Source: an uncultured Chloroflexota bacterium
Lineage (GTDB): Bacteria > Chloroflexota > Anaerolineae > Anaerolineales > Anaerolineaceae
Direction: 5' to 3'
Length of the DNA stretch: 13,210 nucleotides
NCBI GenBank assembly: GCA_902795255.1
Contig: CADBKS010000073.1
Coordinates: forward strand, 1-13,210
Under the pieces are notes generated by a model, which made no database searches, had not been told where the DNA came from, and worked only from the letters and a program-made list of their open reading frames with translations. Shown piece by piece: positions 1 to 13,210 of the stretch. The translations under genes were made by a program, and so were the position numbers. Position 1 is the stretch's first letter. Every line of letters starts with the position of its first letter.

Positions 1-2
1 AG

Positions 3-1880
3 GCCATGTACCGGATCTCCGGGTACCAGTTTTACAACACGTCGGAATTCTCCCTGAAAGAACTCTGCAACGACGCCGACCACATCGCCGCGAACTTCAA
101 GGCATATATCTCCGGGTTTTCGGCCAACCTTCAGGATATCCTGAAGGAGCTGGAACTGGAACAGCACATCACGAAGATGGACAAGGACGGCTGCCTTTAC
201 AATGTTGTCAAGGCATTCTCCGAACTGGATCTGAGTATCGAGACCTTCGATTCCATCAAGATGGGCTACATCTTTGAAAACCTCATCGGCCGTTTCTTCC
301 AGAATGTGGACGCCGGGCAGTTTTATACCGGCCGCGATATCATCAAGCTCTGCGTTTCGCTCCTGATCGCGGAAGGCTGCGAAGATATCTTCGACGACGG
401 CAAGATCATCACCGTATGTGATCAGGCATGCGGTACAGGCGGCATGCTTTCAACGGCCTATTCCTACCTGAAGCATTACAACCCGTCAGCTGATGTCCGC
501 CTGTTTGGTCAGGAATACATGGGCGTTTCCTATGCTGTCGGGCTGGCGGAAATGCTGATCAAAGGGCAGAATTCCGAGAACTTCCGCCATGCGGACACGC
601 TGAAGGAAGACTGTTTCCCGGATACGAAAATGCGGTTTCTGCTGGAAAATCCGCCATTCGGAACCTCCTGGAGTGGCGCCGACGCAAAGGACGGACAGGA
701 AGACGCGGTCAAGAAGGAATATGAAAAAGGTCTGTCCGGCCGCTGGGGCGCCGGGCTTCCTGCAGGATCGGACGCGCAGCTGCTTTTCATGCAGTCGGCT
801 ATCGCGAAAATGGATGACAAGATAGGCCGGGCAGCGATCATCGAGAACGGTTCTCCGCTGTTTACCGGCGGGACGGCTTCCGGTGAATCACAGGTACGCC
901 GCTGGCTGCTGGAAAATGACCTGATCGAAGCCATCGTTCAGCTGCCAACAGACCTGTTTTACAACACCGGCATCACCACCTATATCTGGGTCCTTTCCAA
1001 AAATAAGCGCCAGGGGCGAAAGGGAAAGATCCAGCTTATCGATGCTTCTTCAATCTATCACAAACTGCGCAAGCCGGCCGGCAATAAAAAGAACGAATTC
1101 TCACCGGAAGACCGGGCTGAGATCACGAAGCTTTACGCCAGCTATGAAGAAAACGAATTCTGCAAGATCTACCCGAACACGGAGTTTATCTACCGTGAGT
1201 ATGCCGTGTATCAGCCGCTGCAGCGGAGTTATTCCATCACGCAGGAAAGCATCGAACGGATGCTGCAGTCCGGTGCATTAAAGACGCTCTGGGATGATGC
1301 CGCGGTGATGGACCTGGAAGAAAAGGGAACGACCGCAACCGGCAAGGAACAGAACAAGCTGGCGAAATTCTATGAAACGAAACCGCTGTATGACGCTATT
1401 CTGCAGACACTGAACGACAACATCTCCGATGAAAAATGGATGTCTCCGGAAGCCTTTGAACCGGTCCTGACAAAGGTTCTTTTCGGGCTGAATGTAGACA
1501 GCAAGCTCTTCGGGAACATCATGGACGGTCTTTCCGTGATGGACAAGGAAGCGGTGATCCAGCGGGAAAAGAAGGGTAAGAAAGTGGGCGAGATCATTTA
1601 TGATAAAGCCAGCAAGGATACCGAGATCGTCAAATGGGATGAGAATATCGAGGATTACATGGCCCGCGAAGTGCTGCCGCATGTTCCGGATGCGAAATGG
1701 TTCTTTGAAGAGAACCTTACCGCGAAAAAACCGGTGATCAAGGTCGGGGCAGAGATCCCCTTTACCCGTTATTTCTATAAATATCAGCAGCCGGAAGCCA
1801 GTGAAGTGCTGGCGCAGCGGTTCACTGATCTGGAAGCCAGTGTTGACGAACGTATCCGCAAGTTGTTCGGAAAGGCTTGA
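3..1880 (+). CDS. hsdM: Type I restriction-modification DNA methyltransferase subunit HsdM (5' partial)
   Basis: N6-adenine DNA methyltransferase subunit of a type I R-M complex; with HsdS it methylates the recognition sequence using S-adenosylmethionine, and the M2S core carries HsdR. Numbering from the ATG at 6, the AdoMet-binding motif I is ACGTGGM at residues 141-147 and the catalytic motif IV is NPPF at 215-218, inside a typical N6-MTase fold. The C-terminal part (about 530-624, with GAEIPFTRYFYKYQ) is characteristic of HsdM. The frame is open to the window edge, and the first visible residues (FYNTSEF region) correspond to the internal part of family members that normally carry about 100-150 further N-terminal residues. 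The ATG at 6 is therefore probably not the true start. The stop codon overlaps the ATG of hsdS (TGATG). The first residue of motif IV is preceded by Glu where Ala or Ser is more usual; I attach little weight to this. Confidence 0.95.
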   Translation, partial: AMYRISGYQFYNTSEFSLKELCNDADHIAANFKAYISGFSANLQDILKELELEQHITKMDKDGCLYNVVKAFSELDLSIETFDSIKMGYIFENLIGRFFQNVDAGQFYTGRDIIKLCVSLLIAEGCEDIFDDGKIITVCDQACGTGGMLSTAYSYLKHYNPSADVRLFGQEYMGVSYAVGLAEMLIKGQNSENFRHADTLKEDCFPDTKMRFLLENPPFGTSWSGADAKDGQEDAVKKEYEKGLSGRWGAGLPAGSDAQLLFMQSAIAKMDDKIGRAAIIENGSPLFTGGTASGESQVRRWLLENDLIEAIVQLPTDLFYNTGITTYIWVLSKNKRQGRKGKIQLIDASSIYHKLRKPAGNKKNEFSPEDRAEITKLYASYEENEFCKIYPNTEFIYREYAVYQPLQRSYSITQESIERMLQSGALKTLWDDAAVMDLEEKGTTATGKEQNKLAKFYETKPLYDAILQTLNDNISDEKWMSPEAFEPVLTKVLFGLNVDSKLFGNIMDGLSVMDKEAVIQREKKGKKVGEIIYDKASKDTEIVKWDENIEDYMAREVLPHVPDAKWFFEENLTAKKPVIKVGAEIPFTRYFYKYQQPEASEVLAQRFTDLEASVDERIRKLFGKA

Positions 1881-3139
1881 TGGTGGCTGATATGAGAGAA
1901 ATGAAAGATAGTGGGATAGATTGGATAGGCAATATTCCAAAAATCTGGAGTATCAATAAAATAAAATACATAGTTCAGTCACGCTCAGTAAAATATCGAT
2001 TGTCCAAAGTTGGAAATTATATTGGTTTGGAAAATGTAGAGAGTTCTTCGGGACATTATGTAAAGTCAGAAACTGAATATGTTGATGCTTTTTATGACGG
2101 ATGTGAAGCTGGCGATTTGCTCTATGGAAAATTACGGCCAAATCTTGCAAAAGTTTTGATTTCTCCTTATAAATCATGTTGCACAGGAGAGTTTGAAATT
2201 ATATCATCATCCTTAGTTGGAAAAAAGTTTTTACAGTATTATATGCTGACTGAAGAATTTACTCAGGCGGCCACTCAATTAACATATGGAGCAAAAATGC
2301 CTCGAGTTAACTGGGATGATGTAAAAGAATTCAAAATAGCGTATCCAAATGCAAATGAAATATCAACAATCGTCTCTTTTCTCGACTCCAAATGTTCCGA
2401 AATCGACTCTCTCGCAGCAGACATCCAGACGCAGATCGATACGCTGGAACAGTACAAGCGGTCAGTCATATTTGAGACCGTTTCTAAAGGAATCGGTCAT
2501 TTAAAGTTTAAGAACACGGATTCAGCGGTATGGGTAAGCATTCCTGAGGAGTGGGCCCTCATAGATATAAAGTATCTTTTTGAAATCGTAAAACGTATAG
2601 CAGGAAAAGAAGGCTATGATATTCTCGCAATTACCCAGCGTGGAATAAAAGTAAAAGATATTTCGACAAATGAAGGTCAGATTGCTGAAAACTACCGGGG
2701 ATATCAGTTCGTTTATCCGGGTGATTTCGCAATGAACCACATGGATCTATTGACAGGATGGGTAGATTTATCTAATAATTTTGGGGTTACAAGTCCTGAT
2801 TATCGCGTATTTAAATTGCTCGATACTAATAATCATGACAGGAATTATTATAAGTATGTGATGCAGTGTTGTTATATGTGCCGGATTTTCTATTCATTAG
2901 GGCAGGGCGTTTCCAATCTTGGCCGATGGCGTTTGCAAACATCAACATTCAATAATTTTAAAGTTCCGGTGCCGCCATATAAAGAACAGGTAATAATTGG
3001 GAAATATCTTGACCAGAAAATACGTGAAATCAACAGTGTAATTGATGAAAAACAGGAACAACTCTCAGTGCTTGCCGACTACAAAAAATCCCTCATCTAC
3101 GAATACGTTACCGGAAAGAAAGAAGTACCGAATGAATAA
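1880..3139 (+). CDS. hsdS: Type I restriction-modification specificity subunit HsdS
   Basis: DNA-recognition subunit of the type I system, directing both methylation and restriction to a bipartite target. It has the usual two-repeat plan: target recognition domain 1 (about residues 10-165, with the YGKLRP motif), a central helical conserved region (about 166-204, starting LDSKCSEIDSL and containing LEQYKRSVI), target recognition domain 2 (about 210-375), and a C-terminal conserved helix (about 376-419, LDQKIREINS and LADYKKSLIYEYV). At 419 aa the length is normal. The chosen ATG overlaps the hsdM stop (TGATG) with a GGAAAGG ribosome site just upstream. An ATG at 1892, giving MREMKDSGIDWIG, is a credible alternative because many HsdS proteins begin there. 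The two recognition domains are visibly AT-rich, while the conserved helices match the GC level of hsdM and hsdR, a sign of domain exchange. The target sequence cannot be predicted from this. Confidence 0.95.
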   Translation: MVADMREMKDSGIDWIGNIPKIWSINKIKYIVQSRSVKYRLSKVGNYIGLENVESSSGHYVKSETEYVDAFYDGCEAGDLLYGKLRPNLAKVLISPYKSCCTGEFEIISSSLVGKKFLQYYMLTEEFTQAATQLTYGAKMPRVNWDDVKEFKIAYPNANEISTIVSFLDSKCSEIDSLAADIQTQIDTLEQYKRSVIFETVSKGIGHLKFKNTDSAVWVSIPEEWALIDIKYLFEIVKRIAGKEGYDILAITQRGIKVKDISTNEGQIAENYRGYQFVYPGDFAMNHMDLLTGWVDLSNNFGVTSPDYRVFKLLDTNNHDRNYYKYVMQCCYMCRIFYSLGQGVSNLGRWRLQTSTFNNFKVPVPPYKEQVIIGKYLDQKIREINSVIDEKQEQLSVLADYKKSLIYEYVTGKKEVPNE

Positions 3140-6086
3140 TATCCTCAGCGAAAAAGATTACCAGAAATATTTCCTTGAGCAGCTGGGAAAAAACGGCTAC
3201 AGGATCACATCCGCGAAGGATTATGACCGCCTGTTCGCCGTGGACCGGGTTCGGCTGTTCGAATTTCTCGAAGCCACACAGCCGGAAACCATGGACGCGC
3301 TGCGGAAAGTGTACCGGGACGAAACCGAAGAAACCATCGTCAACCTTATCAACGCGGAAGAGACGAAGGCAAGGGGAAGCCGCCTGAACGTGCTGAAGCA
3401 CGGCATCGATATCGCGAACACCCATCTGGACCTGATGTATACCCGTCCGGCGACCCCTTTCAATCCGGAAACACTGAAAAAATACGAAAAGAACATCTTC
3501 TCCGTTTCGGAAGAAGTCTGGGCATCCGACAATGAACGGATCGATGTGGTGATCTTCCTGAACGGACTTGCCATCATCACCTTCGAGCTCAAATGCAATG
3601 CCGCCGGGCAGTCCTATGAGGATGCGATCTGGCAGTACCGGAACGAGCGCGACCCGAAAACGCGCCTGTTCCGGTTTAAAGCCGGGGCGCTGGTGAACTT
3701 TGCCATGGACCTGGAACAGGTCTACATGACAACGAAGCTGGACAAGAACGCCACCTATTTTCTCCCGTTCAACCAGGGATGCGGCGAAGGAATCAACGCC
3801 GGAGCCGGAAACCCGATCTTTGATGATAAATTCAGCGTCTGCTACATGTGGGAAAGCGTCCTGCAGAAGGACAGCCTGCTTGAGATCCTCAGCAAATTCA
3901 TGTTCATCGAAGTAAAGGAAAAGAATGCTGATACCGGCAAGGGCGTCACCGAAACCGTCATTTTTCCGCGGTACCATCAGCTGGACGTGATCCGGAAGCT
4001 CCTGGACGATGTTGTAGTGAACAAGCGCACCCAGAATTACCTGCTGCAGCATTTTGCCGGTTCCGGAAAAACCAACGAAATCGCATGGCTGAGCCATCGT
4101 CTCACCTCCCTGCATGACCACGACAACAAGATCATCTTCGACAACATCATCGTGTGTACCGACCGCGTGGCCGTGGACCGTCAGCTGCAGCAGGCGATCA
4201 CCAGCATTGAACATAAGGCCGGCATGGTCCGGGCGCTGGATGACAAGTGCAATTCGGCTGATCTGGCGAAAGCCCTGAACGGAAACACAAAGATCATCGT
4301 AACCACCATCCAGAAATTTCCGTACATTCTGGATTCGGTCCATGACCTGCGGGACAAGAACTTCGCTGTGATCATTGACGAGGCCCATTCCTCGACCGCC
4401 GGCAAGAACATGAGTGCCGTTACCCGCGCGCTCGGATCCGACAGCGGAGACAGCGATGATGTGCAGGAAATCATCGCCTCTGAGATCCGGAGAACCGGCA
4501 AACAGCCGAACGTTTCCATGTTTGCCTTTACCGCGACGCCGAAACCGACCACGCTGGCGCTCTTCGGGCGCACGAACCGGAAGGGACAGAAGGAAGCGTT
4601 CCACACCTATTCCATGAAACAGGCTATCGAGGAAGGCTTCATTCTGGATGTACTGCAGAATTACACCACGTATAAGACATACTACCTGTTAAACAAAGAG
4701 ATCAGCGAAGATCCGAAGTTCCAGACGAATGAAGCCAAACGTCAAATCGCAAGGTTCGTCGATCTGCATGAAACCAACATCGCGCAGCGGGTCGAAGTCA
4801 TTGTCGAGCATTTCCGCACTACCGTCATGAACGAACTCGCCGGGCACGCAAAAGCCATGGTCGTCACGGATTCACGGCAGGCCGCCGTCAAATACCGTCA
4901 GGCCTTTGAGGATTACGTAAACCGGAAGGGGTATAGCGGCATCCACGCTCTTGTGGCGTTTTCCGGCAAGGTCACCGTTGATGATGTTGAATACACTGAA
5001 AGCGGCATGAACGGTATTTCCGAGAAAGCGCTGCCGGCGGAATTCGACAAGGATGACTATCAGGTGCTGCTGGTCGCGGATAAATATCAGACCGGGTTTG
5101 ACCAAAAAAAGCTTTGCGCCATGTATGTGCTGAAAAAATTGAAGGGCGTAAACGCGGTCCAGACGCTTTCCCGGCTCAACCGCATCTGCCCTCCCTATGA
5201 CAAGCACACCTTCATTCTGGATTTTGTAAATGATTACGGCGATATCGAAGATGCATTTTCCCGGTACTGCACCGTCACGCTGCTTTCCAACAGCGTCACC
5301 CCGCATTCCATTTACGACCTGGAAGCGAAGATCGACGGCTATTATTTCCTCGATCCTGTCGATGTTTCCGACTTCAACGATATGCTTTACGCGGAATCGC
5401 TGGATACCAAGGCAAAGAACAAGATGACGTTCATGCTCAAACGGGCAAAAAATGAAATCGCAAGAAACAGCGAGGATGTACAGGATGAGATCCTTGTGGC
5501 GATCCGGCATTTCATCCGCGGATACGAGTTCCTGATCCAGGCCTCCTGCTTTGAAGATCAGGAGCTGCACAAGAAATATAACTTCCTGACCTACCTTTAC
5601 GCTTTTTATAAAACACGGCATCACGGATATGGGTTTGACCTGACGGGCATGATCAAAGCATCAAACTTCACCCAGAAGAAGGAAGCCGAGCATCAGAAGC
5701 CGAAACACAAATCCAGCCCGATCGTTAAACTGCCGGTGGCCGATCAAATCATCCTGACGCCGCAAAAGGAAGAAGCGCTTTCGCAGATCATCGCAGAGAT
5801 CAACAGCCGGACGGGGAAGGCGTATGACAACGATGTTGCCGTGAAGGCCATGCTGCAGATCCGGGATATTATGATGAAATCCGAGAAGCTGAAGACCAGC
5901 GCGAAGAACAACACGGAAAAGGATTTTGAGTTCGCCTACTTCGACGATATTGATGATGCCCTGATCGAAGGTCTGGAACAGAATCAGGACTTCTTCACGA
6001 TGCTGCTGAACAATCCGGAACTGAAGCGCAGCGTCCTCGGCATTTTCGCCGGTGAGATCTATAAAAGTCTGCGGGAGGAAAAATAA
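3132..6086 (+). CDS. hsdR: Type I restriction endonuclease subunit HsdR
   Basis: Motor and nuclease subunit of the type I complex: it translocates DNA using ATP and cuts away from the recognition site. The 984-residue length is normal. From the N-terminus there is a PD-(D/E)xK nuclease domain (D138 and E152-x-K154 in TFELKC, followed by a QYR motif near 180). The SF2 helicase motor follows, with Walker A AGSGKT at 309-314, DEAH box at 416-419, motif III FTATP at 466-470 and motif VI QTLSRLNR near 680. A helical C-terminal region completes it. The ATG at 3132 lies 8 nt inside hsdS, with a purine-rich GGAAAGAAAG site ahead of it. The frame is open further upstream to 3042, but those 30 codons only read the hsdS C-terminus out of frame and lack HsdR similarity. 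All visible catalytic residues are intact, so the enzyme should be active. Confidence 0.96.
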   Translation: MNNILSEKDYQKYFLEQLGKNGYRITSAKDYDRLFAVDRVRLFEFLEATQPETMDALRKVYRDETEETIVNLINAEETKARGSRLNVLKHGIDIANTHLDLMYTRPATPFNPETLKKYEKNIFSVSEEVWASDNERIDVVIFLNGLAIITFELKCNAAGQSYEDAIWQYRNERDPKTRLFRFKAGALVNFAMDLEQVYMTTKLDKNATYFLPFNQGCGEGINAGAGNPIFDDKFSVCYMWESVLQKDSLLEILSKFMFIEVKEKNADTGKGVTETVIFPRYHQLDVIRKLLDDVVVNKRTQNYLLQHFAGSGKTNEIAWLSHRLTSLHDHDNKIIFDNIIVCTDRVAVDRQLQQAITSIEHKAGMVRALDDKCNSADLAKALNGNTKIIVTTIQKFPYILDSVHDLRDKNFAVIIDEAHSSTAGKNMSAVTRALGSDSGDSDDVQEIIASEIRRTGKQPNVSMFAFTATPKPTTLALFGRTNRKGQKEAFHTYSMKQAIEEGFILDVLQNYTTYKTYYLLNKEISEDPKFQTNEAKRQIARFVDLHETNIAQRVEVIVEHFRTTVMNELAGHAKAMVVTDSRQAAVKYRQAFEDYVNRKGYSGIHALVAFSGKVTVDDVEYTESGMNGISEKALPAEFDKDDYQVLLVADKYQTGFDQKKLCAMYVLKKLKGVNAVQTLSRLNRICPPYDKHTFILDFVNDYGDIEDAFSRYCTVTLLSNSVTPHSIYDLEAKIDGYYFLDPVDVSDFNDMLYAESLDTKAKNKMTFMLKRAKNEIARNSEDVQDEILVAIRHFIRGYEFLIQASCFEDQELHKKYNFLTYLYAFYKTRHHGYGFDLTGMIKASNFTQKKEAEHQKPKHKSSPIVKLPVADQIILTPQKEEALSQIIAEINSRTGKAYDNDVAVKAMLQIRDIMMKSEKLKTSAKNNTEKDFEFAYFDDIDDALIEGLEQNQDFFTMLLNNPELKRSVLGIFAGEIYKSLREEK

Positions 6087-6271
6087 TGGCTAAACCGAAA
6101 AAAGACAACCATCCTGTAACGATCCGCATGGAAGAATCCGTTTACGAACGGCTGTGTGAACACTGTGAAGCCTCCGGCCAGTCTAAAACCATCGCCATCG
6201 AGCGTGCCGTCGCCATGTATGTTGATGACTACGCGGAAAAAATGAAACGGCTGAATGAAAAAAAGAAATGA
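6086..6271 (+). CDS. Small ribbon-helix-helix (CopG/Arc-like) protein
   Basis: A 61-residue protein whose layout fits the ribbon-helix-helix DNA-binding fold: a basic N-terminus, a short beta strand (about residues 9-16, HPVTIRME), helix A (about 17-30, ESVYERLCEHCEASG), a Gly-containing turn, and helix B (about 33-50, SKTIAIERAVAMYV), then a charged Lys/Glu tail. Such proteins dimerise and bind operator DNA through the paired strands. It starts on the last base of the hsdR stop (TAATG), with a strong GGGAGG site 7 nt upstream, so it is translated as part of the operon. The next gene begins 24 nt after its stop. The likely role is autoregulation of the defence operon; an accessory or antitoxin-like partner of the following GmrSD-type protein is also possible. 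No target site is evident, because the operon promoter lies outside the window. Confidence 0.8.
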   Translation: MAKPKKDNHPVTIRMEESVYERLCEHCEASGQSKTIAIERAVAMYVDDYAEKMKRLNEKKK

Positions 6272-6295
6272 TCATTAAAAAGTGGGAAAATTGAC

Positions 6296-8899
6296 ATGGA
6301 TGGAAAGGCTATAAAACTCATCAAATATCTGGACGGCAGCGAAAAGCGGTTCATCATCCCTGTTTACCAGAGAAACTACAGCTGGAAGGTGGAAAACTGC
6401 CGTCAGCTTTACGATGATCTTGTGAAACTGTGCGTCAATGGTCGAAGCATGCACTTTTTCGGCAGCCTGGTCAGTGTTTATAACGGAGCTTCCGAAGAAT
6501 TTCTGATCATCGACGGCCAGCAGCGCGTCACTACCATCTCTTTGCTGCTGCTTGCGATCCACAATATTCTGAAAGAGGGGAAACTGATCGCAGAAGATAA
6601 AAGGCTGATCGACAAGGTTTACAACAAATATCTGGTCGATGAATATGAACCGACACAGAAACGCATCAAACTCAAAGCCGTAAACAAAGACCTGGAAGCT
6701 TTTGAAAAACTCTTTGATGAAGATCCGTCCGAATATATTCCGAATTCCGATATCACGATCAACTACCTTTATTTCTATGACCGGATCCTGAAGGAAGAAA
6801 TTTCGATCGATGAACTGTACGACGCGATCAGCAAGCTGATGGTGATCAACATCACCGTAGATGAAGATGATGATCCGCAGCTTATCTTTGAAAGCCTCAA
6901 CTCCACAGGTGTTGATCTGACTGAAGGCGATAAGATCAGAAACTTTATTCTCATGGGGCAAAAGCCTGATGACCAGGAATTGTTTTACAAAAAATACTGG
7001 AGCAAGATCGAACTGTGCACGGGCAGCGACAACAATAACAATAATGGCGTGAGTGCCTTTGTCCGGGATTATCTCAGCATGATGAGGCAATCAACGCCTA
7101 CCATGGACAGGATCTATCCGGTTTTCAAATCCTATGTGGGCGAGAAGAACATTTCGATCGAAGATCTGCTGAAGGAACTGCTGTATTATGCCCGCATTTA
7201 TGAAGTGCTGACGAAAGCACAGTTCCCGGACGAAGTGATCAATGCCAGTATCTATCGGCTTAATTATCTGGAGACGACAGTAACAAGGCCGTTTTTCCTT
7301 CAGGTGCTTGACCTCCATAAACAGGGGATTCTGACGAACGATGACCTGAAAGAAATCTTCCTGATCATTGAAAACTTCCTTTTCCGGCGGAACATCTGTG
7401 AAGTACCGACAAATGCGCTGAACAAATTGTTTATTACCCTGAACCGGGAGATCCGCCGCTATGACGGCAGTTATGATAACTATGTCGAAAAGCTGAAATA
7501 CGCCCTGACTTCCAAGAAAGAAAGTGTCAGGTTCCCGGATGACCAGGAATTTGCGACAGCATTGTCTGAAAAGCAGGTGTATCTGATGCGCGGCCGATAT
7601 AAAAATTATTTATTCGAACGGTTCGAGAATTTCGGTACGGATGAAGTAAAGGATGTCTTTACGCGGATCGAAAACGGCAAATACACGATCGAGCACATTA
7701 TGCCGCGTACACTTACACCGGCCTGGCGGACAGCGCTCGGAGAGGATTACAGCAGGATCCATGATGAATGGATCCATCGTTTAGCCAACCTGACGCTGAC
7801 GGCTTATAACAGCAGCTACAGCAACAATACCTTTCAGGAAAAACGTGATGCTGAGAACGGTTTCAGGTACAGCGGCATCCGGATGAACCAGCTCATTGCG
7901 CAGAAAGACCAATGGACACTCGCGGAATTGGAAGAGCGGGATGAATACATGGTGGCGAAAGCACTGGATATATGGAGCTACCCTTTGACAAAATATCAGC
8001 CGGAAGAAAAACAGCTGGATGCGGTGACGCTGGATGACGATGTCAGTTTGACGGGCAGCCAGATAGCCAAATTCGCTTATAAAGATGCTGAACAGGCAGT
8101 TGACAGCTGGACAGACATGTATGCCCGTGTCTTGAAGATATTACACTCGGAGGACAGTTCTGTTTTGACCGGTCTGGCGTATTCTGATTCCGATACCGAC
8201 CTGGCGTTCCATGTCTCAAGTTCTCCGGAGAAATTCAGCAGCAAGGTACAGATCGCACCAAATATCTATGTCTGGACAGGAACGGCGACACAGCATAAGA
8301 TCAACACGCTTAAGCGATTCTTCGTGTTGTTCGGAGCTGATCCTACAGACCTGGTGTTTTATCTGAAAGATCAGAATGAAACGAAATCATCAGAGGATGA
8401 TCCCGAACGATATGAACTCAGAAAGCGGTATTGGGCCTTTGCTCTTCCATATATTCAGGAAAAGTTTGATGAAAACGGGCCTTTCAGCAAGGTAGGTTGG
8501 TCGACCGCGAATTGGATTTCCGGTGCTTTCGGAATCGGTGGATTCAGTGTGGTTTGTGCAGCCAATTATGATTGCGCCCGTGTCCAGTTCTATCTCGGAA
8601 AATCTCAAAAAGAGAAGAATAAGGAAGCTTTCGATTTTCTTAACCGGCACAAGGCCGAAATCGAAGACAAGCTGGGTGCTCCGGTCGTGTGGGAGCGGGG
8701 TGACGGCAATAAGGCATCTCACATCACCTATGAACTGCCCGGTGTTAGCATCACGAAAGAAACGGACTGGATCAGAATGGCGAAGTTCCATGCGGAATGG
8801 AGCAGAAAATTCTGTGACGTGTTCCTGCCGGTTTTGAAAAACCTGTATCCGGCTGTAACTTTGCCGATATCAGGGCCGAAACAGGCAAAATTATTGTAA
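6296..8899 (+). CDS. GmrSD-family type IV restriction-like protein (DUF262 - DUF1524 HNH - DUF4268)
   Basis: An 867-residue single-chain protein of the GmrSD/BrxU type, a family of NTP-dependent endonucleases that act on modified DNA, best known for glucosylated hydroxymethylcytosine in phage DNA. The N-terminal DUF262 domain carries IPVYQRNYSW at residues 21-30 and the DGQQR motif at 73-77, which form the nucleotide-handling centre. A DUF1524 HNH-type nuclease domain follows, with EHIMP at 466-470 (H467), then HRLANLTL (N498) and N505. The C-terminal third (about 700-855, from KRYWAFALPYIQ to KFCDVFLPVL) resembles DUF4268. A stretch at about 575-700 has no name I can assign. All visible catalytic residues are present. 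A GTGGGA site precedes the ATG at 6296, which lies 24 nt after the RHH gene. Function by family is firm; the actual modification recognised is unknown. Confidence 0.88.
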   Translation: MDGKAIKLIKYLDGSEKRFIIPVYQRNYSWKVENCRQLYDDLVKLCVNGRSMHFFGSLVSVYNGASEEFLIIDGQQRVTTISLLLLAIHNILKEGKLIAEDKRLIDKVYNKYLVDEYEPTQKRIKLKAVNKDLEAFEKLFDEDPSEYIPNSDITINYLYFYDRILKEEISIDELYDAISKLMVINITVDEDDDPQLIFESLNSTGVDLTEGDKIRNFILMGQKPDDQELFYKKYWSKIELCTGSDNNNNNGVSAFVRDYLSMMRQSTPTMDRIYPVFKSYVGEKNISIEDLLKELLYYARIYEVLTKAQFPDEVINASIYRLNYLETTVTRPFFLQVLDLHKQGILTNDDLKEIFLIIENFLFRRNICEVPTNALNKLFITLNREIRRYDGSYDNYVEKLKYALTSKKESVRFPDDQEFATALSEKQVYLMRGRYKNYLFERFENFGTDEVKDVFTRIENGKYTIEHIMPRTLTPAWRTALGEDYSRIHDEWIHRLANLTLTAYNSSYSNNTFQEKRDAENGFRYSGIRMNQLIAQKDQWTLAELEERDEYMVAKALDIWSYPLTKYQPEEKQLDAVTLDDDVSLTGSQIAKFAYKDAEQAVDSWTDMYARVLKILHSEDSSVLTGLAYSDSDTDLAFHVSSSPEKFSSKVQIAPNIYVWTGTATQHKINTLKRFFVLFGADPTDLVFYLKDQNETKSSEDDPERYELRKRYWAFALPYIQEKFDENGPFSKVGWSTANWISGAFGIGGFSVVCAANYDCARVQFYLGKSQKEKNKEAFDFLNRHKAEIEDKLGAPVVWERGDGNKASHITYELPGVSITKETDWIRMAKFHAEWSRKFCDVFLPVLKNLYPAVTLPISGPKQAKLL

Positions 8900-8923
8900 A
8901 AACAAACGCCTTTTCTTGTTCAC

Positions 8924-8951
8924 CGTGCCAGTCCCGCGTGGGACTGGCACG
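8924..8951. terminator. Perfect 12-bp hairpin after the defence operon, probable terminator
   Basis: CGTGCCAGTCCC and its exact reverse complement are separated by a 4-nt GCGT loop, starting 25 nt after the stop of the GmrSD-like gene. Its place between that operon and the next promoter suggests a transcription end. There is no T-run on the 3' side of either strand, so intrinsic termination is not assured. It could instead stabilise the mRNA 3' end or act as an operator. Confidence 0.5.
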
Positions 8952-8962
8952 TCAATCACAAC

Positions 8963-9028
8963 TATAATTCGGACGAATTTTCTAATATTTCCTTTGTTTT
9001 CAGAACTTCCGTGCTATAATTTCGAAAT
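8963..9028 (+). promoter_or_regulatory. Two TATAAT modules with overlapping palindromes upstream of the S24-like gene
   Basis: A perfect TATAAT occurs at 9015-9020, 41 nt before the start codon at 9061. Only weak -35 candidates exist near 8992-8999 (TTTGTT or TTGTTT). Overlapping it is the 10-bp palindrome ATTTCGAAAT at 9019-9028, where a repressor would block initiation. A second TATAAT at 8963-8968 overlaps a similar inverted repeat, TTCG-GA-CGAA at 8968-8977. The repeated arrangement suggests an operator pair, and the protein encoded downstream belongs to a repressor-related fold, so autoregulation is an attractive inference. No binding evidence exists in the sequence itself. Confidence 0.55.
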
Positions 9029-9060
9029 ATAGAACAAAACTCAATATCAGGAGGTCAGAA

Positions 9061-9549
9061 ATGGAACTCAGCACGGAAGAAAGAATTCAGATCCTCGTGA
9101 ATGCGGGCGGGAAACGGCTGACAGAGAAAGATGTTGCTTATATCCCGTTGTTTGAGGGCCCGGAAGAACTCGGGTGGTTCTTACGGATGGGGAAAGAAGA
9201 ACGGGACCGGATCCAGGCGGAATTCGCCGAAGTATGTGCGGAAGAAAGAAAGAACGGGGAGCCGCTGGTCAGCCTGGAGATGAAGGACAACAGCATGAGC
9301 GGAACGCTCCGCACCGGGGACAAAGTGACGGTGAACTGCAAAGAAGCGGTGACGGAAGGACGGATGGGCGCGGTCTCCATCGCGGGTGAGGACGGGGATG
9401 TGCTGATCCGCAGGATCAGCTACCCGGGCGGGAAGGTCCGGCTGATCCCCGACAACGGAGCCTACCCGGCCGGCACCTTCGACCCGGACCAGGTCAACAT
9501 CCTCGGAAGGGTCGCCTGGGCGGACAGATGCGCTGCGCGCAGTGAATAG
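9061..9549 (+). CDS. S24/LexA-like domain protein without recognisable HTH, catalytic Lys replaced by Arg
   Basis: A 162-residue protein whose C-terminal half (about 68-155) has the order of the S24 peptidase fold found in LexA and phage repressors: LEMKDNSMSG around Ser78, LRTGDKVTV, EGRMGAVSI, VLIRRISY, RLIPDNGAYP, and ILGRVAW. The serine equivalent to the self-cleaving nucleophile is present at 78. At the position of the catalytic lysine (the K of the usual VKRL) there is Arg117, 39 residues later, so self-cleavage is doubtful. The first 65 residues are charged and helical and do not look like the HTH that repressors of this class carry. The start is well supported by AGGAGG 6 nt upstream. 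The last codons and the TAG stop lie within a repeat element starting at 9530. It may be a repressor-like regulator, or a degenerate S24 protein with another binding role. Confidence 0.8.
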   Translation: MELSTEERIQILVNAGGKRLTEKDVAYIPLFEGPEELGWFLRMGKEERDRIQAEFAEVCAEERKNGEPLVSLEMKDNSMSGTLRTGDKVTVNCKEAVTEGRMGAVSIAGEDGDVLIRRISYPGGKVRLIPDNGAYPAGTFDPDQVNILGRVAWADRCAARSE

Positions 9550-9574
9550 TGAATAGTGAATAGTGGCGGTGTCG
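9530..9574 (+). repeat. Modular heptamer element E1: GCGC-TGC-GCGC head, AGTGAAT x3, GGTGTCG tail
   Basis: An 11-nt GCGC-TGC-GCGC hairpin is followed at once by three perfect AGTGAAT copies (9541-9561), a partial copy, and GGTGTCG at 9568-9574. The same order of parts is seen in four elements between 12268 and 12953. This copy overlaps the end of the S24-like gene: the head encodes residues near its C-terminus and the first heptamers supply Ser-Glu-stop. Confidence 0.75.
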
Positions 9575-9588
9575 CTGAATACGGCAGT

Positions 9589-9616
9589 CATTGGTCATTG
9601 GTTATTGGTCATTGGT
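9589..9616 (+). repeat. Heptamer tandem array CATTGGT x4 (one TATTGGT variant)
   Basis: Four consecutive 7-bp units, three CATTGGT and one TATTGGT, lie between the GGTGTCG motifs at 9568 and 9625. This family differs in sequence from the AGTGAAT array just upstream but keeps the 7-bp period. Confidence 0.85.
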
Positions 9617-9624
9617 GAGGAATA

Positions 9625-9640
9625 GGTGTCGCTTCGCGAC
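9625..9640 (+). repeat. GGTGTCGCTTCGCGAC hairpin motif (locus C)
   Basis: The GGTGTCG tail runs into a 5-bp hairpin, GTCGC-TTC-GCGAC (9628-9640). The identical 16-mer occurs at 12947-12962, and a version with loop TGC occurs at 12376-12391. It marks the boundary between heptamer arrays and a core sequence. Confidence 0.75.
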
Positions 9641-9641
9641 G

Positions 9642-9765
9642 GGGTAAGATGAGCGCCGGTGCCGAAGGGGCCGGTTGCCTGCCGACACCGAAGGTGGCAG
9701 AAGGAACCGCTCCCGAAGGCACTTTTATGATGAGCACAGCGGGACGCGGAGCGCAATCTTTACCC
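9642..9765 (+). ncRNA. Candidate structured RNA with three CCGAAGG hairpins (speculative)
   Basis: The ends can pair: GGGTAAGAT (9642-9650) with ATCTTTACCC (9756-9765, one bulge), continued by GCGC (9653-9656) with GCGC (9751-9754). Within this closing helix are three smaller hairpins, at about 9656-9674, 9679-9700 and 9709-9735. Each contains CCGAAGG, in the loop of the first two and on the 5' side of the third. An alternative long-range pairing GTGCC/GGCAC (9659-9663 with 9718-9722) exists. It matches no riboswitch or housekeeping RNA that I recognise; the glycine riboswitch shares only a CCGAAGG-like segment and lacks its other conserved blocks. It sits where the core of the repeat locus would be, so it may be a structured repeat rather than an expressed RNA. 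Confidence 0.3.
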
Positions 9766-9852
9766 GCCGCGAAGTTACATCGAGTCAGGAGGCACCGATT
9801 CGCAGCAGGTATTACTTACAGGATCTAACTCATACCATCAAGAACGATGCTA

Positions 9853-9975
9853 TATAATACCCCTTACAGAAAAAATGATATTTTCCTCTTTTCTGTCCTG
9901 TTTTCCGCCAGCTACCAAATTATGCGGGAAACAACAAAGCTCCCGGAAGTTATCATCCGAGAGCTTTTGCTTTAT
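9853..9975 (+). ncRNA. Candidate small RNA with own promoter and terminator (speculative)
   Basis: A TATAAT at 9853-9858 could start a transcript near 9865. The next 110 nt form three hairpins in a row: ACAGAAAA with TTTTCTGT (9866-9896), TTTCCGC with GCGGGAAA (9902-9931, one bulge), and the terminator-like stem at 9936-9967 followed by a T-rich stretch. No clear -35 box and no start codon with a ribosome site are present. It could equally be only the 3' end region of the convergent minus-strand operon. Confidence 0.3.
9936..9967. terminator. Probable bidirectional terminator
   Basis: AAAGCTC and GAGCTTT form an arm continued by CGG/CCG with one mismatch around a 10-nt loop. On the plus strand it is followed by TTTTGCTTTATT. 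On the minus strand the 3' side reads GCTTTGTTGTTT. It lies about 100 nt beyond the last gene of the minus-strand operon, so ending that operon is its likely job. Confidence 0.6.
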
Positions 9976-10000
9976 TCTATGACTACTTCGATCTCCAAAT

Positions 10001-10033
10001 CCTCACCGGAAAGGGAGCCATTTCCCGCTGAGG
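10001..10033. other. Imperfect hairpin after the minus-strand operon
   Basis: CCTCA (10001-10005) pairs with TGAGG (10029-10033) and GGAAA (10008-10012) with TTTCC (10021-10025), separated by a small internal loop. No T-run follows on the minus strand. It lies 30 nt past the stop at 10064 and may protect the transcript end. Confidence 0.4.
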
Positions 10034-10063
10034 ACAGGGGCCGAATCTGTTTTGTTCCAAAGG

Positions 10064-10579
10064 TCACTTATTAATATATTCTGCTTCCGCAAGATAAAAC
10101 AGTTTGAAATTCACATAACGTCGCCTTACTGTATATTGAATTTTCCCTGCAATAATTCCGGAAATAGAAGTATCTGTCATGGATGTTACCTCAAAATATC
10201 CGGATTTTGTGTTTTCCCTGAATGGGAACCCGTAATAGTAAGCATAATAATTCAATGCCTCGTAAATCAGATTAGGATCATGTGACTTGAAAACGCCCAT
10301 CGAAACCAACGCCACGGATTTTACCGTTTTCTGTGTGTTATAACTCACGAGAATCGACAGAGAACTGTCATCCTCAAAGAGAATTGCGCCAACTTCAGTA
10401 TATCCCGCAAAAAAGTCCGAATAAAACGGCATAACCTCAGCGTCAGGGAAATTCTTATCAATGTAGTCTTTGCTTTTTCCGATAAGCTCGTAAAAAATAT
10501 CATAATTTTGTGCTGACGCTGATGAGAATGAAAAGATGACGATCAGCAGACAAAGAATAAACCACCTTTTTTTGATCAT
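10064..10579 (-). CDS. Secreted or membrane-anchored protein of unknown function, paralogue 1
   Basis: A 171-residue protein with an N-terminal signal sequence: a basic start (MIKKR), a hydrophobic run to about residue 17, and a likely signal peptidase site after SASAQ (about 20-24). The frame is open 26 codons further upstream, but AGGGGG lies about 5 nt before the ATG at 10579 and the signal peptide begins there, which fixes the start. The mature part opens with FYELIGKSKDYIDKNFPD, then FAGY, a strand-rich middle (LSILVSYN, VKSVALVSMG), a Tyr-rich helix (NYYAYYYGF) and an ending with YTVRRRYVNF. It aligns along its whole length with the neighbour at 10698-11213, which has the same length. 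I do not recognise the family. It is the last gene of the minus-strand operon. Confidence 0.8.
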   Translation of the reverse strand: MIKKRWFILCLLIVIFSFSSASAQNYDIFYELIGKSKDYIDKNFPDAEVMPFYSDFFAGYTEVGAILFEDDSSLSILVSYNTQKTVKSVALVSMGVFKSHDPNLIYEALNYYAYYYGFPFRENTKSGYFEVTSMTDTSISGIIAGKIQYTVRRRYVNFKLFYLAEAEYINK

Positions 10580-10697
10580 ACATGCCCCCTTTATATTGAT
10601 TGAGATTCCGGAACAGTCGCTTTTCGACAGAAAAGATAAAGCTGGAGAATCCGGCATTACGCTGATTTTCCGGTCGACGATTTACAGCGGGAACGAT

Positions 10698-11213
10698 TTA
10701 ATTAAACTGCATCGTGTCGGAAATGAAACAATAATTCTTCTTGTCCTGGTCGTAACGTCTTATCACGTCGAATAAAATTTTGTTCGGAAACATCAGCGAA
10801 ACAAAATCCTCAATATCCATCATGACCTTGGCCTCATCCATGTTTTTGTCCAATCCCAGAATTTCTGTAAACAGCTTTGTTGCTACAGCAATATCGCCAT
10901 CCGGTATATACTCCTCACACCCCTGAGCAAACAGACCAACCGTTTTGACTTCATTCGTCTTGCCTTCAGGGCCATCAAACCCGACCGTCATAATAATGCC
11001 GCCATCCTTACATTGCGCCTGTTCGATGATGTAGTAGCCCGCCCAAATATCATCATCCTCCGGGAGCATCTTATAGTCCGGATAATTCCGCTCGACCCAC
11101 TGTCTGCTTCTTCCATTCAGGTATTCAAAAAAGGTTACATCTTCTCCGAAAACAGCGGAAAAAGACATACAGAAAAGCAGGATCATAGCCGACAAAATGA
11201 TGATTTTTCTCAT
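10698..11213 (-). CDS. Secreted or membrane-anchored protein of unknown function, paralogue 2
   Basis: Also 171 residues, with signal sequence MRKIIILSAMILLFCMSFSAVFG and probable cleavage near residue 23. The ATG at 11213 is preceded 5 nt upstream by GGAGG, which overlaps an in-frame GTG at 11219, so the GTG is unlikely to be the start. Similarity to the downstream gene is clear: FFEYLNGRSRQWVERNYPD against FYELIGKSKDYIDKNFPD, then WAGY/FAGY, VKTVGLFAQG/VKSVALVSMG and FDVIRRY/YTVRRRY. Two cysteines in the mature part (in AQCKDG and QGCEEY) and one near the C-terminus (NYCF) are absent from the paralogue. It starts only 34 nt after the stop of the nuclease gene, with no terminator between. 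Function unknown; the location is probably outside the membrane. Confidence 0.8.
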   Translation of the reverse strand: MRKIIILSAMILLFCMSFSAVFGEDVTFFEYLNGRSRQWVERNYPDYKMLPEDDDIWAGYYIIEQAQCKDGGIIMTVGFDGPEGKTNEVKTVGLFAQGCEEYIPDGDIAVATKLFTEILGLDKNMDEAKVMMDIEDFVSLMFPNKILFDVIRRYDQDKKNYCFISDTMQFN

Positions 11214-11247
11214 AAACACCTCCGATCACGATAAAAAAGATGTCCTC

Positions 11248-12231
11248 TTATCTGCTGTTGTAGTAAGGGTGTCCGGCTTTGCCCGGTGTATACGTCGGAT
11301 CAAGCTTTTTGGACTCTGAATCACTGACGAAACGGACTTCTCCCGTACTGCTGGTGCATTTATTGTCATTGTAGGCATTCCCGTCATATGAAGTAGCATC
11401 CACACAATGCCAGGTCACTGAAGAACCGAGATAATTCCGGTTCTGCACCGGCTGAGGGACCGGCGTTCTGGTCGGTGCAGGGGCCACGATTCTTCCGGGT
11501 AAAGCAGTCTTTATTGCGGCAGGTGTTGCGGTTTTTGCAGGTACGGCAGTCTTTCTCGTAATGGGCGTTTTAGTCGGGGAAACAGGTCCGACCGTTCGGG
11601 TTATCGGCTGTGAATGAGTGTAATTCTTTTTGGTATTTGAAGAGGAACAGCCATCCAGAATCGAAGGAAACAAAATGGACAGAGAGAACAGGATAAGAAA
11701 AGCCAGGAATATCTTCCCACAGCCGCCCGATTTTTCTTTCTTATATGCTGGAGCCGTCACAGGTTGTGTATTTTGATTCACAGTTCCTTTTTGTTGAGAG
11801 ATACGCGGTAAAGGAATATAGATGCGGTTTCTCAGTTCCTGCCTGATCCCGTATGGATTTGAATTCACCTGATTATAAGAGTATCGAATCAGTTCAAATC
11901 CCTGACGGGTAACCTCATTCGTTCGATTTTCCTCTCTGTCGAATCTATCTGAACTCATATTCGTATGATAAGTACGCCCGTCCAGTTCAATTGCATATTT
12001 CCTGTTTCCGGTTCCCCATACAACGAAATCGATATAAAAGAAACGGTTACTTCGCTGGTCAAGAATGCGATACTGATAGCTCAGGTGATCAAGCCCGTTT
12101 TCTCCGAATTCCGGGAAAAAGACTTTATCCAGGAACAGGCGCTCAAGATATGCGTCATTTGAGTTGAGCTGAGGATTAAAGCGAATAAAATCAGTGTATT
12201 TCATAACCATTATTGTACCAGCCGACACCAT
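11248..12231 (-). CDS. Membrane-anchored DUF559/Vsr-like nuclease-domain protein with Thr/Pro-rich stalk
   Basis: A 327-residue multidomain protein. Residues about 25-140 resemble the DUF559/Vsr-like branch of the PD-(D/E)xK nucleases: YIDFVVWG with D68, AIELDG with E82 and D84, TYH with H89, DRFDREENR, then GFELIRYSY. After a linker and a basic patch comes a single membrane segment (about 174-193). A Thr/Pro/Lys-rich stalk with TPT-like motifs (about 205-262) follows, then a C-terminal domain with two cysteines (C276, C292) and the motif LDPTYTPGKAG near the end, which I do not recognise. The nuclease should be cytoplasmic and the stalk outside. The start is uncertain: the ATG at 12231 has AGGA 6 nt upstream, but ATGs at 12210 and 12204 (MKYTDFIRF) are possible, and the first codons overlap a repeat motif. 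It heads the minus-strand operon. Confidence 0.75.
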   Translation of the reverse strand: MVSAGTIMVMKYTDFIRFNPQLNSNDAYLERLFLDKVFFPEFGENGLDHLSYQYRILDQRSNRFFYIDFVVWGTGNRKYAIELDGRTYHTNMSSDRFDREENRTNEVTRQGFELIRYSYNQVNSNPYGIRQELRNRIYIPLPRISQQKGTVNQNTQPVTAPAYKKEKSGGCGKIFLAFLILFSLSILFPSILDGCSSSNTKKNYTHSQPITRTVGPVSPTKTPITRKTAVPAKTATPAAIKTALPGRIVAPAPTRTPVPQPVQNRNYLGSSVTWHCVDATSYDGNAYNDNKCTSSTGEVRFVSDSESKKLDPTYTPGKAGHPYYNSR

Positions 12232-12267
12232 TTTTTATCCTGCTGTTTTCACATACAAGCAATCGCC

Positions 12268-12323
12268 GCGCTATGCGCAGCAGCCAGCTGCCAGTAGCCG
12301 GTTGCCAGTTGAATTCGGTGTCG
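12268..12323 (+). repeat. 56-nt modular element E2 (GCC-type heptamers)
   Basis: GCGC-TAT-GCGC head (12268-12278), then five 7-bp units AGCAGCC, AGCTGCC, AGTAGCC, GGTTGCC, AGTTGAA (12279-12313), then TTC and the GGTGTCG tail (12317-12323). Total 56 nt. Three G bases separate it from the next element. Confidence 0.8.
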
Positions 12324-12326
12324 GGG

Positions 12327-12382
12327 GCGCTATGCGCAGCGGCCAGCTGCCAGTAGCCAGAAGCCAGTTGAATTCGGTGTCG
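12327..12382 (+). repeat. 56-nt modular element E3 (GCC-type heptamers)
   Basis: Same plan and same length as E2: head GCGC-TAT-GCGC (12327-12337), heptamers AGCGGCC, AGCTGCC, AGTAGCC, AGAAGCC, AGTTGAA, and tail GGTGTCG (12376-12382). The tail continues into the hairpin GTCGC-TGC-GCGAC at 12379-12391. Confidence 0.8.
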
Positions 12383-12491
12383 CTGCGCGACGATCTGTAT
12401 AGGTGCTGATTTTGGAAGGGTGGGTCTTGCAGCGCGGAGCCGGAGCGTTCTCTTTAAACGACGCGAAGCGTCACCTTATTAACTTCACTCT
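12346..12491 (+). repeat. Long direct repeat, copy A
   Basis: Matches 12917-13056 with two base changes and one 6-nt insertion (the extra CCGGAG-type block near 12435). It spans the end of element E3, the GTCGC/GCGAC hairpin, a 68-nt core, the inverted hairpin GACGC-GAA-GCGTC (12460-12472) followed by ACC, and the first TTCACTC unit. Confidence 0.9.
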
Positions 12492-12570
12492 GCACTCTTC
12501 ACTCTGCACTCTAAGTGAAGCTCTTCACTCTTCACACTTCACGCTATAGAAAGCTCTTCACACTTCATTC
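12484..12570 (+). repeat. TTCACTC-type heptamer arrays of locus A
   Basis: TTCACTC, TGCACTC, TTCACTC, TGCACTC run from 12484 to 12511. After a 12-nt break, TTCACTC, TTCACAC, TTCACGC follow (12524-12544), then TTCACAC and TTCATTC (12557-12570). On the minus strand the units read AGTGAAG/AGTGCAG, close to the AGTGAAT family of element E1, so this is the same family in reverse orientation. Confidence 0.8.
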
Positions 12571-12600
12571 TGAATTCAGGCGGCACCTTAGAGGAAGCAA

Positions 12601-12664
12601 GGTACACTGTCACCTGATACAGGTGTACCAGACTTGGTACACCTGTATCAGGTGGCCGTGTACC
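12601..12664. repeat. 64-nt nested palindrome
   Basis: Two perfect 20-nt arms (12611-12630 and 12635-12654) flank a 4-nt GACT loop. Outside them, after 3-nt unpaired spacers, GGTACAC (12601-12607) pairs with GTGTACC (12658-12664). Each 20-nt arm contains its own smaller palindrome, CACCTG-ATA-CAGGTG or CACCTG-TAT-CAGGTG, so cross-shaped or multi-hairpin folds are also possible. No T-run follows, so it is not a standard terminator. Confidence 0.85.
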
Positions 12665-12749
12665 GCTCCGCTCGTTCCGCGTGCGCTGCATACAGTTCCG
12701 ACGCGAATCGTCACATTCCTTTTCCCTTATACCTGCGCGGCGCTTTATC

Positions 12750-12781
12750 ACATTCCGGAATGTTTGTCAAGGGACAACATT
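12750..12781. repeat. 14-bp palindrome overlapping an imperfect hairpin
   Basis: ACATTCCGGAATGT (12750-12763) is a perfect palindrome. Its right half also begins a second inverted repeat, AATGTTTGTC with GACAACATT (12759-12781, one bulged T), followed 5 nt later by TTTCTTTTTT. This could be a plus-strand terminator, but no plus-strand gene precedes it. Confidence 0.5.
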
Positions 12782-12838
12782 GCCGGTTTCTTTTTTAATT
12801 CCGGGGGCGTAAACTGGATTTAATACAGCAGGCAGTGA

Positions 12839-12894
12839 GCGCTGTGCGCAGGATTCAGGATTCAGGATTCAGGATTCAGGGGAAATCGGTGTCG
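12839..12894 (+). repeat. 56-nt modular element E4 (AGGATTC heptamers)
   Basis: Head GCGC-TGT-GCGC (12839-12849), four perfect AGGATTC units (12850-12877), a 10-nt remainder, and the GGTGTCG tail (12888-12894). It has the same head, tail and total length as E2, E3 and E5 but a completely different heptamer. Three bases separate it from E5, as between E2 and E3. Confidence 0.8.
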
Positions 12895-12897
12895 CGG

Positions 12898-12953
12898 GCG
12901 CTTCGCTCAGCAGCCGGCTGCCAGTAGCCAGAAGCCAGTTGAATTCGGTGTCG
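12898..12953 (+). repeat. 56-nt modular element E5 (GCC-type heptamers)
   Basis: A degenerate head (GCGC-TTC-GCTC), heptamers AGCAGCC, GGCTGCC, AGTAGCC, AGAAGCC, AGTTGAA (12909-12943) and tail GGTGTCG (12947-12953), running into the hairpin GTCGC-TTC-GCGAC at 12950-12962. Confidence 0.8.
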
Positions 12954-13056
12954 CTTCGCGACAATCTGTATAGGTGCTGATTTTGGAAGGGTGGGTCTTG
13001 CAGCGCGGAGCGTTCTCTTTAAACGACGCGAAGCGTCACCTTATTAACTTCACTCT
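12917..13056 (+). repeat. Long direct repeat, copy B
   Basis: Near-identical to 12346-12491, lacking the 6-nt insertion and differing at two bases, with starts 571 nt apart. It carries the core and the inverted hairpin GACGC-GAA-GCGTC at 13025-13037. Confidence 0.9.
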
Positions 13057-13102
13057 TCACTCTTCACACTTCACTCTTGGCAAAGCTCTTCACACTGCAC
13101 AC
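13049..13102 (+). repeat. TTCACTC-type heptamer array of locus B
   Basis: TTCACTC, TTCACTC, TTCACAC, TTCACTC (13049-13076), a 12-nt break containing AAAGCTC, then TTCACAC and TGCACAC. The same break and AAGCTCTTCAC junction occur in locus A. The array ends just before the ribosome site of the next gene. Confidence 0.75.
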
Positions 13103-13128
13103 TAATGAAATGAAAGGAGGGCCGCGGG

Positions 13129-13210
13129 ATGGCGGAAAGAAAAGATAAAACCGACGCCGGGATTTTTCAGTTCCCGATGATCACATGCTGCGGCTCTTAT
13201 GATGACGTGA
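13129..13210 (+). CDS. Start of an unidentified protein-coding gene (3' partial)
   Basis: An ATG at 13129 with AGGAGG at 13115-13120 (8-nt spacing) opens a frame that runs to the window edge. The 27 visible residues begin MAERKDKTDAGIFQFPMI and include a Cys-Cys pair (ITCCGSYDDV). The strong ribosome site makes translation likely, but too little is present to name a family. Its 5' leader is the end of repeat locus B. Confidence 0.7.
   Translation, partial: MAERKDKTDAGIFQFPMITCCGSYDDV

Follow-up and report, generated by a model that had tools for sequence, protein, structure and literature searches.

We analysed a 13,210-nt stretch of DNA (contig CADBKS010000073.1, positions 1–13,210; hereafter the window) that carries short hairpins and tandem arrays of 7-bp words, together with related repeat elements in other genomes. 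Window positions 6–8899 hold defence genes, namely those for the type I restriction proteins HsdM, HsdS, and HsdR and for a GmrSD-type protein with DUF4268 (PADLOC Orf5/HEC-06-like). An S24-type peptidase open reading frame (ORF, 9061–9549) stops inside an AGTGAAT array that begins at 9541 and supplies its stop codon. Between the repeat loci, at 10064–12231, are two minus-strand ORFs without a Pfam match and a DUF559/MTES_1575-like nuclease ORF.

The left repeat locus starts with a head hairpin, GCGC-TGC-GCGC (9530–9540, + strand; sequence reading and folding), followed on the same strand by 3.6 units of AGTGAAT (9541–9565), a GGTGTCG tail without its hairpin half (9568–9574), 4.3 units of GTCATTG (9587–9616), and a GGT-tagged hairpin, GGT-GTCGC-TTC-GCGAC (9625–9640); the arrays come from tandem-repeat analysis and the last hairpin and tail from reading the sequence. 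The sequence-only reading of this DNA had described four right-hand elements of exactly 56 nt, each with a GCGC-N3-GCGC head, a 7-bp array, and a GGTGTCG tail, and re-inspection agreed with it at 12268–12323, 12327–12382, 12839–12894, and 12898–12953 (all +), including the degenerate head of the last one. The array is GCCAG-type in the first and AGGATTC (12849–12880) in the third, and the tail of the second opens a hairpin at 12376. The shorter element at 9530–9574 (45 nt) keeps the head-array-tail order, the tail-to-tail distance is 59 nt in each right-hand locus and 57 nt in the left one, and tandem-repeat analysis found the window's 7-bp arrays to be real.

The four 56-nt elements are not independent, because the two right-hand loci represent one duplicated block plus a 59-bp tandem duplication. 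Positions 12311–12538 and 12882–13103 share 204 identities over 222 aligned bases with one 6-base gap, making 12898–12953 the homolog of 12327–12382, and 12268–12382 is a 59-bp tandem duplication (92% matches) of which 12268–12323 is the first copy. Three of the four therefore share descent, and the sole independent case of that length is the one at 12839. The proposed constant length also did not generalize to the tail sites of other genomes.

GGTGTCG occurred eight times on the two strands of the window against an expectation of 1.15, and none of 200 shuffles reached at least eight. At three of the eight sites (9625, 12376, and 12947), GGTGTCG opens a perfect hairpin, GGT-GTCGC-N3-GCGAC; the tail is often half of a GGT-tagged hairpin. 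The opposite strand read from 12475 and 13040 gives GGT-GACGC-N3-GCGTC, i.e., GGTGACGC-N3-GCGTC. With these inverted hairpins, each right-hand locus holds a unit of 100 or 94 bp (neither assigned a strand): 12376–12475, between hairpins at 12376–12391 (+) and 12460–12475 (−), and 12947–13040, between hairpins at 12947–12962 (+) and 13025–13040 (−). Both units have a GCCAG-type array on the left and a CTTCACT array on the right, the latter at 12483–12512 (−; CTTCACT/CTGCACT, the other-strand counterpart of AGTGAAG words) and 13048–13078 (−; 4.4 units). Head and tail had been taken as the boundaries of the repeat; the real unit has two ends, each made of an array, GGT, and a hairpin, with the arrays mutually inverted. 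Two inverted palindromes forming one unit, one of the features of REPINs (repetitive extragenic palindromic [REP] doublets forming hairpins), were found at 12376/12475 and 12947/13040.

In a sample of 394 genomes from the order to which genome G003 belongs, 56 matched window positions 12240–13110, and nearly all of the listed matches fell on the arrays at 13048 or 12483. Phage and plasmid collections had no match to 12230–13110 at E 1e-5. Four patterns searched in a viral collection hit 0, 1, 0, and 0 stretches, and the sole match (L001, position 1690) was dropped as chance because its only GGTGTCG sits 3 kb off on the other strand. A scan for TTCGGTGTCGCTNCGCGAC returned 58 loci, and the titles of 38 name Clostridia, Clostridiales, Ruminococcaceae, or Oscillospiraceae. 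These 38 plus L011 and L016 were kept for the tail-site, element-finder, gene-carrier, and array-partner analyses; the other 18 were left out, among them L003, whose flank looks array-like. Titles place several relatives in the rumen or nearby (buffalo rumen, sheep rumen, goat omasum), and we take genome names beginning with RUG to mean rumen as well.

The order of array and then GGTGTCG recurred in these relatives, as had been anticipated. GGTGTCGCTNCGCGAC matched 83 times in 12 genomes reached through the loci, with no match for the reversed control. The period-7 match upstream of 82 tail sites was 0.493, compared to 0.256 in control sequence 108–150 nt upstream, and at 45 of the 82 sites the period-7 or period-8 signal exceeded the 99th percentile of shuffles. 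A GC4 head hairpin was present within 75 nt upstream at only 11/81 tail sites (0 in shuffles), making the head an occasional module. Fixed ends around a changing heptamer, another part of the sequence-only reading, thus held in that hairpins stay while words change, and failed in that the head is dispensable. By eye, the head of many copies in G001 (SIG584) belongs to an inverted repeat enclosing a larger composite. The order array-hairpin-array was also seen by eye in L376, L378, L379, and L384, among 15 loci viewed outside the counts.

The recurring unit in the relatives is an array, TTN(N), GGT, hairpin P2, a linker, hairpin P3, ACC, and the inverse array. P2 has a stem of 5 bp and P3 usually one of 12 bp, and the compact form is gene-less, with a core of 53–63 bp and a length of ~130–140 bp with its arms. 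A finder based on structure alone, which requires perfect stems, GGT, and CC and has the two-inverted-palindrome rule built in, recovered 102 elements (counting the tandem triplet of L201 and some near-duplicates) and had no match in 350,618 mononucleotide-shuffled bases. The L201 copies (G174:C116:1239–1510) are three cores with arms in tandem at a 107-bp period.

The hairpins of the core are conserved and covary. In an alignment of 31 cores, 30 of them distinct, pairing holds in 98.5% of cells, a value that is partly due to selection because the alignment contains 31 of 32 sequences picked for a perfect P3. Two-sided changes occupied 25 cells and one-sided changes one, and with sliding partners the two-sided cells dropped to 0–2. 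In a second alignment of 142 model matches (121 distinct), which was fitted to the model and includes partial matches, there were 245 two-sided and 8 one-sided pair changes, and 0/500 shuffles were as high by any measure. That one-sided (G-U) steps are nearly absent suggests that constraint or repair acts on the DNA. GGT and ACC were retained in most rows of a model built without forcing the tag, the stem sequences varied (GTCGC, GTCCC, ATCCC, ATGCC), and a GTAG or CGTC tag was never kept. Folded as single-stranded DNA, all four copies tested from relatives adopted the long-arm structure with its pair of hairpins, with z values from −3.6 to −9.3.

Most cores lie between two arrays of matching period. 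In the 99 elements with enough flank, 88 had a left array, 89 a right array, and 84 both; the arms agreed in period in 82 of the 84 two-armed elements (7 bp in 45 and 8 bp in 37), and two were mixed. Unit number was narrow, with medians of 4.5 and 4.43 per arm and quartiles of ~4.25 to 5. In a second scoring, periods agreed in 83/85 elements, compared to a mean of 64.2 and a maximum of 75 under within-genome permutation (0/10,000 as high), and complementarity between left and right arms exceeded within-genome permutation (15.0 vs 12.1, 0/10,000). Genome labels in the arm-permutation, word-class, and core-comparison tests were assigned by hand, with L208 treated as its own genome. An earlier comparison of self and cross arm complementarity (31 elements, 0/10,000) was discarded, having pooled genomes; within a genome it was explained by word-length class. 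Words form genome dialects, and word length goes with core type: the P3 centre is ATAT in 28/37 eight-types and 3/46 seven-types (Fisher p = 4e-11).

The pairing of arrays was also found independently of the core. An inverted partner lay within 260 nt of 202/394 period-7/8 arrays and a direct partner near 32/394, compared to 16 inverted and 24 direct of 393 in a random-locus control using the flanks of a random other array; the loci in this count were mostly chosen for holding these elements. Detected array periods were 7 (323), 8 (106), 9 (26), 6 (13), and 5, 10, or 11 (nine together). A second arm type, a tandem short word plus a variable hairpin with the sides inverted, was seen in L228, L243, L246, L268, L153, and L343; its forms include AAGTTATGATT plus hairpin and ATGAAGTAT plus hairpin, and in L153 such arrays flank a Y1 transposase gene on both sides.

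A 59-nt model of the core matched 19 of 23 genomes in one genus, with up to 64 matches per genome and 305 in sum, a total that includes short secondary opposite-strand matches on an element. In a sample of the family it matched 10/150 genomes, and in a sample of the class 1/391 (the query genome only) under stricter filters and a stricter E-value limit. Comparison of the 102 elements gave 152 pairs with at least 90% identity over the core, and 146 remained once orthologous pairs and tandem copies were set aside. Similarity ran 27–42 bp into both flanks and then stopped in 34 of them, with 24 of the 34 stopping at 34–42 bp at 90–94% identity; four of the 146 stayed similar past 60 bp on one side. 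Cores are therefore widely dispersed, and the full ~130–140-bp unit is a shared block in a minority of pairs.

Orthologous sites turn over in content. Two gene junctions were traced through the genus, with matches in 20 and 16 of the 23 genomes. Judged by eye, they contained, depending on the genome, this element, another hairpin between similar arms, a repeat of the GTAG type, tandem arrays of hairpins, or no insert, and neither offered an empty site close enough to read a target duplication. The core can also flip in place: the flank junctions of L313 (G007) and L317 (G003) match while the core is reversed (core score 0.96). Both flanks matched in 20 ortholog pairs, 13 with the same orientation and seven, from five loci, with the opposite one. 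Only L032/L043 among the flipped pairs keeps core, words, and junctions; the other four loci were rejected as true flips since their core scores of 0.63–0.78 make separate insertion likelier. Nested elements were present in L030, L033, and L093, where GTAG-type repeats lie between the two core hairpins and the outer arms are still complementary.

We favour, at somewhat better than an even chance, the explanation that the units described here are mobile DNA of Oscillospiraceae-type Clostridia, small and non-autonomous, similar to REPINs or miniature inverted-repeat transposable elements (MITEs), with iteron arrays as their ends. Like MITEs, they are short and gene-less with inverted ends; common outer ends, another MITE feature, were seen in only 34 of 146 non-orthologous pairs, mostly of the 8-bp class. 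Because the ends are inverted, a single strand can form one long arm tipped by two hairpins. An enzyme encoded elsewhere would recognise the folded or iterated ends and would mobilise the core together with both arms as a single unit; the words may then change faster than the core through slippage and diversification, and recombination between the inverted arms could flip the core in place. The window copies are best read as a more REPIN-like relative, in which the GGT-hairpins are near-copies of each other within units of 94–100 bp, the arms have different words, and the left arm is tandemly duplicated.

Several results weigh against the mobile-element explanation. None of the five scored window arrays (the others were below scoring limits) lay within 260 nt of an inverted partner, and the model of the compact element's core did not match the window. 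Folding of the window was weak: positions 12260–12550 as RNA (z 0.84) and 9530–9640 as DNA (z −0.69) were no better than shuffles, and the two GGT-bounded units had z values of −0.97 and −2.58. Similarity ended within 10 bp of the core on the left in 95 and on the right in 73 of the 146 dispersed pairs. Among the 34 arm-sharing pairs, 27 fall in the 8-bp class, in which words resemble one another, and the common arm ends may thus partly reflect a common array length. At fixed word length and genome, an arm's complementarity was 15.46 to its own partner vs 15.36 to the arms of other elements (n = 79; 3974/10,000 permutations as high), so arm pairing is a property of the class and not of each element. 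The genome comparisons revealed no transposition event, excision product, or target-site duplication. Among 172 GGT-hairpin sites no gene-carrying version was accepted; a P3-like hairpin was within 4 kb downstream of 106, 96 of them at core distance, and four longer hairpin spans (542–1976 bp) were rejected as gene carriers with arm scores of only 4–6. The Y1 transposases, known as REP-associated tyrosine transposases (RAYTs), do not track the element.

A tentative and clearly less probable proposal is that the elements form a distinct mobile class. Its inverted ends would be short arrays of about four exchangeable words of 7 or 8 bp, read in their iterated form by an enzyme other than Y1/RAYT. 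Shifts in the specificity of that enzyme would be recorded in the dialects, and the core would be turned around in place through inversion between the arms.

That the elements are REPINs moved by the same genomes' RAYT (Y1) transposases, with the GGT tag replacing GTAG, we consider unlikely. Inverted tagged palindromes, an extragenic location, high copy number, and a tandem cluster (L201) are all shared with REPINs as described in the available sections of PMC3116915, and 12/23 genomes of the genus had matches to Y1 (PF01797). However, 11 of the 22 Y1 loci examined (of 23; L389 was left out) had GTAG-hairpins within 900 bp of their centre, and only 1/22 had a GGT-hairpin of the element type within 1600 bp. 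Eight of 19 element-bearing genomes had no Y1 match and one of four element-free genomes did, although absence is weak evidence in draft genomes. Word arrays are not mentioned for REPINs in the available sections of PMC3116915. The Y1 loci L147, L149, L155, L156, L158, L159, L161, L391, and L393 lie near GTAG-hairpin repeats such as GTAGGGGCGAGCATTGCTCGCCC and look like REP/RAYT pairs in Clostridia. By eye, one element in L390 and L242 (G176:C116) lies right at the start of a RAYT-like frame that is seemingly cut short there.

The sequence-only reading had proposed a cassette or copying process, with fixed cores and repeat content swapped at each site, and we regard this as improbable too. It is consistent with similarity stopping at the core in most unrelated pairs, with the genome dialects, and with one gene junction at which cores scoring 0.82–0.96 carry different words in G003/G007, G008, and G173. 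At that junction, however, the arm-adjacent sequence on one side also differs between G007 and G008 (by eye). Different elements are also often found at orthologous junctions, and separate insertion may thus account for such cases. The strong link between word length and core type indicates that words are not freely swapped.

A function in RNA, with the elements kept as transcribed terminators, mRNA stabilisers, or regulators, appears more unlikely still. One copy folded strongly as RNA (z −6.7, 0/200 shuffles), and cores lie near genes, with medians of 42 and 50 nt to the longest open frame on each side and 41 convergent vs 7 divergent contexts from naive ORF calls, in which 10 of the 102 elements were unresolved and 10 of the 102 cores fell inside a long open frame. 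Orientation between co-directional genes was nevertheless unbiased (23 vs 21), G-U changes were rare, and one element was flipped in place. Searches against Rfam 15 returned no match above gathering score in the window, and in 10 loci from relatives the matches were limited to RNase P and a T-box. Simple slippage of replication next to palindromes, without a mobile unit, is very improbable: heptameric repeats are over-represented in many bacterial genomes (PMC4692102, available sections), but slippage is at odds with the narrow unit number and shared period of the two arms, the excess of inverted over direct partners, and the 34 dispersed pairs that share a core and both arms.

Short tandemly repeated repetitive (STRR) sequences of cyanobacteria are intergenic 7-bp tandem arrays. 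The elements here also contain intergenic tandem heptamers, in both the window and the relatives, and to our knowledge STRR sequences do not occur as inverted pairs around hairpins; the likeness drawn by the sequence-only reading is an analogy only. A literature search of open-licence PubMed Central (PMC) papers found no description of this element. Few inverted pairs were reported for the GGGGA(C/T)T repeats of Nostoc (PMC4692102). The TAACTGA repeats of Beggiatoaceae are likewise intergenic 7-bp direct repeats in few copies, but have one fixed word, are almost always direct, and have a proposed translational role (PMC4679880). The GGGAATC arrays of Xanthomonas resemble these elements in being intergenic 7-bp arrays of mostly four units, with 70 and 75 cases of two close arrays in inverted orientation, and are commoner between convergent than divergent genes (PMC4692102). 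They differ in having a single G-rich word, studied as a G-quadruplex; the available sections describe no tagged hairpin core, 7/8 classes, or mobility, and the authors generally did not find the arrays with mobile elements (PMC4692102). REPINs and REP doublets share the inverted palindrome pair, high copy number, extragenic location, tandem clusters, and hairpin or clover folds (PMC3116915, PMC3733652). Their tag is GTAG or CGTC whereas ours is GGT (PMC3116915, PMC3733652), and unlike REPINs the elements here end in word arrays and are not next to RAYT genes (PMC3733652).

The closest prior art consists of REPINs and the paired heptamer arrays of Xanthomonas. For heptamer arrays in distant phyla, we know of no accepted explanation of why the unit is seven, why there are about four units, or why the arrays sometimes occur in inverted pairs. 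Here, many such arrays form the ends of a defined unit whose hairpin core is conserved and covaries. A statistical oddity thereby becomes an element that can be tested, one that has ends, subfamilies, and turnover and offers a concrete starting point in the search for its presumed mobilising enzyme.

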